A DNA stretch of 64,000 nucleotides from an uncultured Alphaproteobacteria bacterium. Its GTDB lineage: Bacteria > Pseudomonadota > Alphaproteobacteria > Micavibrionales > UBA1664. The position numbers and the translations under genes are program-made. Below the pieces are notes generated by a model. That model was not told the origin of the DNA and did not search any database. It was given only the letters and a program-made list of their open reading frames with translations. Of the stretch, positions 9,991-33,418 are shown piece by piece. The DNA is taken from the NCBI GenBank assembly GCA_943789475.1, contig CALSUG010000002.1, positions 62,001 to 126,000 on the forward strand, in the 5' to 3' direction. Position 1 is the first letter of the stretch. Each line of letters begins with the position of its first letter.

Positions 9991-10073
9991 TAAGTCGTTC
10001 AAGTCGTTTTCAACCTAACCACTTGAAAATAAACAAAACCATTAGACTTAGTGAAGTTTAATTAAGTCGTATT
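9991..10073 (+). repeat. Dispersed intergenic repeat, copy A (TAAGTCGTTCAAGTC ... TAAGTCGTATT)
   Basis: Shares both end motifs and near-identical spacing with the sequence at 32652-32731 (opposite strand). Confidence 0.6.
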
Positions 10074-30139: not shown

Positions 30140-30232
30140 TCGGAAGTCGGCGCGGGCGGAATCCTCGCCAATTTGGTCAGGTCGGAAACGAAGCAGCCAC
30201 AACGAATTTTTCTGGGTCGTGTCCGGCTTCTA
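30140..30232 (+). ncRNA. ffs: Signal recognition particle RNA (4.5S type)
   Basis: Conserved apical domain GGTCAGGTCGGAAACGAAGCAGCC (30175-30198); flanks GGAAGTCGG / CCGGCTTC can pair. Ends approximate. Confidence 0.92.
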
Positions 30233-30306
30233 TTATCTCATAAAACCTCTGACTAAATTTCTATTTATCATGGATATTCTATCCAAATATTGCTATTGCT
30301 TAACAC

Positions 30307-32382: not shown

Positions 32383-32553
32383 ATGGCTAAAAAAGGTCCA
32401 AATCAAAAAGTGAAATTAGTATCATCTGCTGGTACTGGATATTGCTATTACACACGTCGTACAAAAAACCTGACTGAAAAAATCGTTCAGCGTAAATACG
32501 ATCCTGTTGTTAAAAAACACGTAGAATTCAAAGAAGATAAGATTAAATCATAA
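32383..32553 (+). CDS. rpmG: 50S ribosomal protein L33
   Basis: Manual translation [56 protein letters not shown] (56 aa; below track cut-off). Confidence 0.96.
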
Positions 32554-32651: not shown

Positions 32652-32731
32652 AATACGACTTATTAAGTCGGTTAAGTTTAAATAAGCACACCTAACATAT
32701 TGATATTATTGATTCAGACTTAAACGACTTA
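32652..32731 (-). repeat. Dispersed intergenic repeat, copy B
   Basis: Reverse complement reads TAAGTCGTTTAAGTC ... TAAGTCGTATT; includes palindrome CGACTTATTAAGTCG at 32656-32670. Confidence 0.6.
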
Positions 32732-32846
32732 GGTTTTCCATCTTTATAATTGCATCTAATATATCGACGCAATTACCCCCTTGATACAATTACAGTACCT
32801 TAGAATCATCCAAACATGCAGCTTTTTAAACTCACCCCATAAAAAA

Positions 32847-32887: not shown

Positions 32888-33418
32888 CTATTTCACGCCA
32901 CAGGCCTTATTAATTGCATCATGTGCACCACCCGATCCTTTTAAAGAAAAAGTATCCGTTGTTTTTGTACCACGTGATGACGTCCCCTTTACAACCATAT
33001 TTGATCCCTTACGGATGGATTCAGCAATTTTGTTATCTGTTGCTTGATCTGGCGTCCATGCCATATCTTTTTGTGTGAACAATGTGAACTTATTATTATT
33101 TACATCAACGGTGACATCACTGCCGTCTTTGTATGTATAACCAGTAACATAACTAAATACATTTTTCGTTTTTTCACCAGGACGATGTGTCACAAGCGCA
33201 AATACATCACCACGTTTTGTATAATTACCCTCGGCCTTTTTAGGTTGACTAACCATGTAACAAACTTTTTTATCATTTTCCGTGAATTTATAAGCCGCCC
33301 AATCACCAAAATTGCCAATAAGTGTTGGTGATTGTGCCATCGCTGGTGAAATCAAGGTACCAAATGCAAGCGTTGTTAATGTCAAAAAAGAGCGACGAAA
33401 AGTCATGTTTATCTCCAT
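32888..33418 (-). CDS. IalB (invasion-associated locus B)-family secreted protein
   Basis: Signal peptide ending SPAMAQ; GNFGDWAAYKFTENDKKVCYMVSQPKK; KMSNMVVKG-type C-terminal region and terminal ACGVK. Confidence 0.82.
   Translation of the reverse strand: MEINMTFRRSFLTLTTLAFGTLISPAMAQSPTLIGNFGDWAAYKFTENDKKVCYMVSQPKKAEGNYTKRGDVFALVTHRPGEKTKNVFSYVTGYTYKDGSDVTVDVNNNKFTLFTQKDMAWTPDQATDNKIAESIRKGSNMVVKGTSSRGTKTTDTFSLKGSGGAHDAINKACGVK

Follow-up and report, generated by a model that had tools for sequence, protein, structure and literature searches.

Several bacterial repeats and phage packaging sites have an IHF site combined with other parts. Correia elements of Neisseria are MITEs of about 107 and 155 bp, and the 155-bp form binds IHF in vitro. 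This longer form carries an IHF site and putative promoters, and empty sites are known (PMC2229807). Their termini carry 24-bp inverted repeats and TA ends, and they are associated with target-site duplications. RIB/BIME elements of E. coli are made of REP palindromes. According to Boccard and Prentki 1993, as cited in PMC2267715, they are IHF-binding repeats located at the 3' ends of transcription units. Two phage packaging sites are also relevant. P1 pac, a single site inside pacA, is a compact bent site with hexamer repeats (HEX4/HEX3) on both sides of an IHF site (PMC10028697); according to the title of Huang and Masters 2014, cited in the same paper, placing P1 pac sites in the E. coli chromosome strongly raises the packaging of host DNA. 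Lambda cosB (R3-I1-R2), a single phage site next to cosN, has an IHF site flanked by terminase sites, and the IHF bend makes their grooves face each other for terminase (PMC4856287).

The element analyzed here was found in a 64,000-nucleotide window of the genome of an uncultured alphaproteobacterium (G000; 1.97 Mb, 9 contigs). Its nearest precedent in kind is the Correia element, and its physical layout is closest to P1 pac and lambda cosB. Like Correia/NEMIS, it is a short dispersed intergenic repeat (<200 bp, 14 full copies, no transposase gene inside) with empty orthologous sites, and like the 155-bp form it has an IHF site and a promoter, here by sequence consensus only. Unlike in Correia elements, the inverted tandem hexamers are internal, and a resident capsid operon has a promoter similar to that of the element. 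Since terminal inverted repeats were not found and target-site duplications could not be placed, the element was not filed as a Correia member. P1 pac shares the hexamers flanking an IHF site, but here they are arranged 2+2 and occur in about 15 chromosomal copies, none of them in the terminase gene; in contrast to lambda cosB, no cosN-like cleavage site is known. We give a probability of about 0.5 to the following reading: the family is short, non-autonomous, MITE-like intergenic DNA of probable phage origin, whose IHF-folded 3' half docks a multimer supplied in trans.

Two copies in the window and a family in the genome

An initial annotation had described two similar stretches of the window as a repeat of about 85 bp with conserved paired ends and a variable middle. 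Direct checking located these ends where it had placed them: TAAGTCGTTCAAGTC at 9991-10005 (+) and TAAGTCGTATT at 10063-10073 (+) for copy A, and TAAGTCGTTTAAGTC at 32731-32717 (-) for copy B. The repeat thus exists; its unit is larger than described, and many copies reach further upstream to a promoter.

Copy B (32652-32731, minus strand) is a canonical member of the family. It scored 81.8 bits (C2:94662-94743 in the genome) against R1, a sequence model of the conserved module built from the alignment of 14 copies. The whole copy, at 32652-32800 (-), consists of a degenerate promoter and leader, an A-rich linker, the IHF-centred module and a third half-site, and sits between two convergent genes, 32888-33418 (minus) and rpmG at 32383-32553 (plus). 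On the basis of the alignment of copies and the sequence, a degenerate -10-like hexamer, TGTAAT, was placed at 32789-32794 (-); it is followed by TATCAA (32781-32786, -), which resembles the family leader TATCAACG. The module itself begins with a left arm of tandem hexamers, TAAGTC-GTT-TAAGTC (32717-32731, -), continues with the IHF site TATCAATATGTTA (32693-32705, -), and ends with the inverted right arm AACTTA-ACC-GACTTA (32664-32678, -). The half-site TAAGTCGTATT (32652-32662, -) lies directly 3' of the right arm. Only a few family copies carry it; therefore, of the pair of ends initially proposed, the left arm is real, but its partner is a third half-site absent from most copies.

Copy A is far less complete. 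Its left arm, TAAGTC-GTT-CAAGTC (9991-10005, +), is 109 bp upstream of the ATG that starts der (10114), and its right part (10044-10073, +) contains GACTTA at 10046-10051 and TAAGTCGTATT at 10063-10073. The IHF consensus was looked for at the expected place and was not there. Copy A scored 19.6 bits against R1, compared to 64.6-81.9 bits for full copies, and matched over positions 5-47 only. On this sequence evidence it is a degenerate relative, which was therefore classified as a decayed or rearranged member. By itself, copy A might partly be a chance similarity.

The window alone gives a modest excess of TAAGTCGT, with 4 occurrences against 1.03 expected; 4 was reached in 3 of 100 shuffles. 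The genome-wide excess is decisive. The exact 15-mer TAAGTCGTTYAAGTC occurs 14 times in the whole genome, whereas the initial annotation had raised the case of just two chance-level occurrences. Allowing up to two mismatches, 35 places were found (some of them inverted right arms of the same elements) versus 10 for a reversed-pattern control, and the R1 search returned 14 full copies and one partial copy (44 bits). Chance similarity is thus ruled out for the family, given the 14 exact copies and a congener family of the same geometry. These same data make it extremely improbable that the two window copies are unrelated, even though the count in the window is only slightly out of the ordinary and copy A matches the family weakly.

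The window also contains, at 30141-30235 (+), a bacterial small SRP RNA (RF00169, 51.3 bits), just upstream of a dnaX-like gene.

Inverted hexamers around an IHF consensus: DNA site or RNA

The module has a strict order: two tandem TAAGTY hexamers with a 9-bp period (a 3-bp spacer within the pair), 11 bp, the IHF consensus, 14 bp, and two inverted hexamers. This 15-11-13-14-15 geometry, read directly from the sequences, is exact in 24 of the 25 full copies from two species. WATCAANNNNTTR is the established IHF consensus, and it is also exact in 24 of these 25 copies, the odd one having AAACAA. Among 100 hexamers (consensus TAAGT(C/T)), the G is invariant and the T following it is present in 99. 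From the IHF site to the right arm, the sequence is mostly variable. Interiors do differ between copies, as initially noted, but not freely, since they include the fixed-spacing IHF consensus and the second inverted arm. The genome encodes both IHF subunits, with an alpha gene at 127.8 bits (cut-off 111) and a beta gene at 117.3 bits (cut-off 115). The element is predicted to bind IHF. Many members reach 50-100 bp upstream to a promoter, and promoter-bearing elements are about 165 bp long.

The initial annotation had suggested a multi-site protein-binding element, a REP/MITE-like element or a small structured RNA. The arms can form a hairpin on both strands; however, pairing tracks the hexamers rather than a stem. 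At position 15/54, 23 of 24 copies have a C.A mismatch; at position 8/61, within the 3-bp spacer, only 8 of 24 can pair; and in several copies of the congener G001 the left and right spacers differ outright (GTC vs TAT). GU pairs between the arms are rare. The stem pairing and covariation expected of an RNA are thus not seen. Because the spacers are unpaired and the mismatch is retained, we read the element as inverted tandem protein sites around a predicted IHF bend, i.e. a multi-protein DNA site rather than an RNA. Fixed-spacing tandem hexamers flanking an IHF consensus favor the first of the three initial proposals.

A multicopy small RNA family, in which the promoter would drive an RNA of about 130 nt that folds into a 5' stem and a long 3' hairpin, was considered for several reasons: -10 sequences are present in most copies, a 5' stem is possible, with a compensatory-looking change in one copy (L017), and plus-strand folding z-scores range from -1.3 to -5.3. 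But the minus strand folds about equally well (-1.7 to -3.7), a U-tract after the hairpin is absent in most G000 copies, the hairpin loop is conserved as the IHF consensus, and an Rfam search gave no family matching the element. Together with the pairing data, this makes an RNA improbable. A riboswitch or attenuator was ruled out because several copies have no codirectional downstream gene. Integron attC sites were also considered, as some copies come immediately after short ORFs; inspection by eye showed no consistent attC core, and the IHF site is central.

Genomic positions and signs of mobility

At the ORF level, at which gene context was assessed, copies follow stop codons, sit between convergent genes or occupy tail-to-head gaps. 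A search of the genomes of 55 relatives (draft assemblies) matched, besides G000, only congeners: G001 in 12 places and G003 in one. Positions are specific to each lineage. Between mazG and hflX, and between tgt and upp, the G000 element is absent in congeners G003 and G004; between uvrC and purB it is absent in G001. In G003 and G004, mazG and hflX are directly adjacent; in G000, the copy sits between the stop codons of the two genes. In the reverse test, no G000 counterpart of the genes flanking G001 copies was near any G000 copy. Congeners thus lack the element at three conserved gene pairs while having copies elsewhere, which indicates that it is mobile or subject to fast turnover; part of this positional turnover could be due to loss. 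Element boundaries at empty sites are not placeable to the base, as the congeners are too diverged.

A lack of conservation at orthologous loci had initially been named as part of what would refute the repeat. It is indeed observed, but we interpret it as mobility. Many dispersed intergenic copies, empty orthologous sites and the absence of positions shared between congeners agree with the earlier suggestion of a MITE-like element. In contrast, a REP element in the strict sense is not supported: a search for the Y1 (RAYT) transposase (PF01797) gave no match in G000, although it gave matches in 5 control genomes. The whole unit has no terminal inverted repeats, the 5' promoter end and the 3' arm end not being inverted copies of each other, and the inverted arms are inside the 3' half. 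Plasmids searched for the element gave chance-level matches only, and viral contigs searched with the arm-IHF pattern gave none.

The locations at gene 3' ends, together with the IHF consensus, recall RIB/BIME elements, and the family could accordingly be a chromosomal element of that kind, an IHF-bent site acting in nucleoid packing, supercoiling or transcription termination. We consider this doubtful, since the arms are tandem hexamers and not REP palindromes, many copies include a promoter with a capsid-type leader, there are only about 15 copies, their positions are not conserved between congeners, and no Y1/RAYT gene is present.

Promoter, capsid operon and the packaging question

In many copies a promoter lies 50-70 bp upstream of the module. 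Ten G000 copies have an exact TATAAT 52-66 bp before it, and variants are present in others. G001 copies show a full TTGACA-N17-TATAAT around a palindrome such as ATAGGATAATTATCCTAT; some G001 copies have no promoter, and therefore promoter and module may be separate modules. The first transcribed bases of element promoters, TATCAACGCCA, resemble those of the capsid-operon promoter at the same offset. With up to 2 mismatches allowed, 89 of the 142 genomes of the order contain the pattern TTGACNNNNTAGGAATNNNNTCCTATNAT, at most 22 times in one genome, versus one match in all for the control; the pattern was found in no genome of families f3 and f6. This order-wide promoter with an internal palindrome (TTGAC-N4-TAGGAAT-N4-TCCTAT-N-AT) has 22 sites in G131, 18 in G101 and 17 in G001.

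In eight genomes, including G000 (C3:45481), the pattern precedes a podovirus-like major capsid gene. A word like TATCAACGCCA is present in all eight capsid leaders, 5-6 nt after the -10, with 8-11 of 11 bases identical. At the same offset, 8 of 12 short G000 copies match TATCAACGCCA at 7-11 of 11 bases, only 4 of the 12 leaders being individually significant against shuffles. The operator palindrome is not retained in G000 copies. The shared promoter could reflect common descent rather than common control.

The capsid gene (L163:17464-18333) belongs to a podovirus-like cluster at C3:34500-49000 (L163, L164) that also has genes for portal, tail, large terminase and endolysin. Of the 142 genomes of the order, 103 have the capsid gene, nearly always in single copy and mostly at 60-86% identity, and named phage relatives include pelagiphages. 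The cluster is a candidate gene transfer agent or domesticated prophage.

The TTGACNNNNTAGGAATNNNNTCCTATNAT pattern also precedes ORFs about 55 aa long that show weak similarity to Phd/YefM antitoxins (PF02604, E 0.037, short of the curated cut-off). These ORFs start a few bases after the operator-bearing -10 and are apparently leaderless; a toxin partner was not noticed. They were seen in G001 (L082, L087, L089, L090), in G000 (L083, L088) and at L084, L085, L086 and L233. Short elements possibly arose by internal deletion of such a mini-Phd cassette; this origin was kept only as a possibility because G000 leaders fit the capsid operon, at a fixed offset, better than the ORF start.

The link to the capsid operon makes packaging a serious rival. 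The elements would then be dispersed pac/cosB-like initiation sites used by a gene transfer agent, a domesticated podovirus-like particle: terminase would bind the IHF-folded hexamers and begin to package host DNA from numerous points on the chromosome, and the common promoter type would couple this to the induction of capsid synthesis. The layout, with hexamer clusters on both sides of the IHF site as in P1 pac (PMC10028697) and as in the R3-IHF-R2 array of lambda cosB (PMC4856287), would suit this role, as would the widespread single-copy capsid gene with adjacent portal, tail and terminase genes, and the operator and leader common to elements and capsid operon. However, R1 has no match in the capsid/terminase cluster itself (C3:34500-49000), characterized GTA terminases are described as typically non-specific (PMC12946183), and a promoter is superfluous for a pac site. 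We consequently regard packaging as unlikely. The broader picture of pac-like start sites spread through the chromosome, with hexamers varying between species and serving an order-wide gene transfer agent derived from a domesticated particle, is rather unlikely too. If the hexamer-binding protein were a terminase, the result would be a gene transfer agent whose loading sites are built into the genome.

For the MITE-like reading, we infer from the sequences a phage origin of the family, a protein acting on the hexamers and transposition by a mobilizing enzyme. A typical copy would comprise a promoter and initial transcribed sequence of the order-wide capsid-operon kind, followed by an IHF-centred nucleoprotein site. 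By bending the centre of the element, IHF would bring the two hexamer pairs opposite one another; a multimeric protein made elsewhere and acting in trans would bind the facing pairs and thereby recognize the element for mobilization. The elements may be ordinary hitch-hiking DNA; that they load virus-like particles is less likely. If the hexamer-binding protein turns out to be a transposase or integrase, it would reveal how elements that lack obvious terminal repeats can move. Each part of the element can be read in physical terms: a bend site, paired docking hexamers and a capsid-operon-type promoter.

Other hexamers are found in the same layout. In G002 the left arm is GTAGTC-TCC-GTGGTC, the IHF site AATCAATGGGTTA and the right arm GACCAC-GGG-AACCAC-GGT-GACCAC, and the operator that precedes them is again the same. 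The bend-centred layout is thus kept between species while the docking word differs (TAAGTC, GTGGTC), which points to co-evolution with the presumed hexamer-binding protein. In G001, a second type of element has AATCAATATTTTA flanked by GACTTA repeats. The resemblance is looser in the more distant G019 and G131, where the operator precedes a start codon, palindromic repeats of other kinds and AAACAANNNNTTA. In these two genomes (L210, L212, L226, L227, L235), GTCATTGCGAGG...GCAATCCA palindromic repeats separate the operator promoter from the sequence after it, a placement that suggests nested repeat insertions. Finally, a separate ATCGTCAAACGAACTAAG-like repeat, common to G000 and G002, was observed outside the window (L083 downstream of the ORF, L015 and L150); in L083 and L150 it is followed by an IHF-like AATCAAAATG site.
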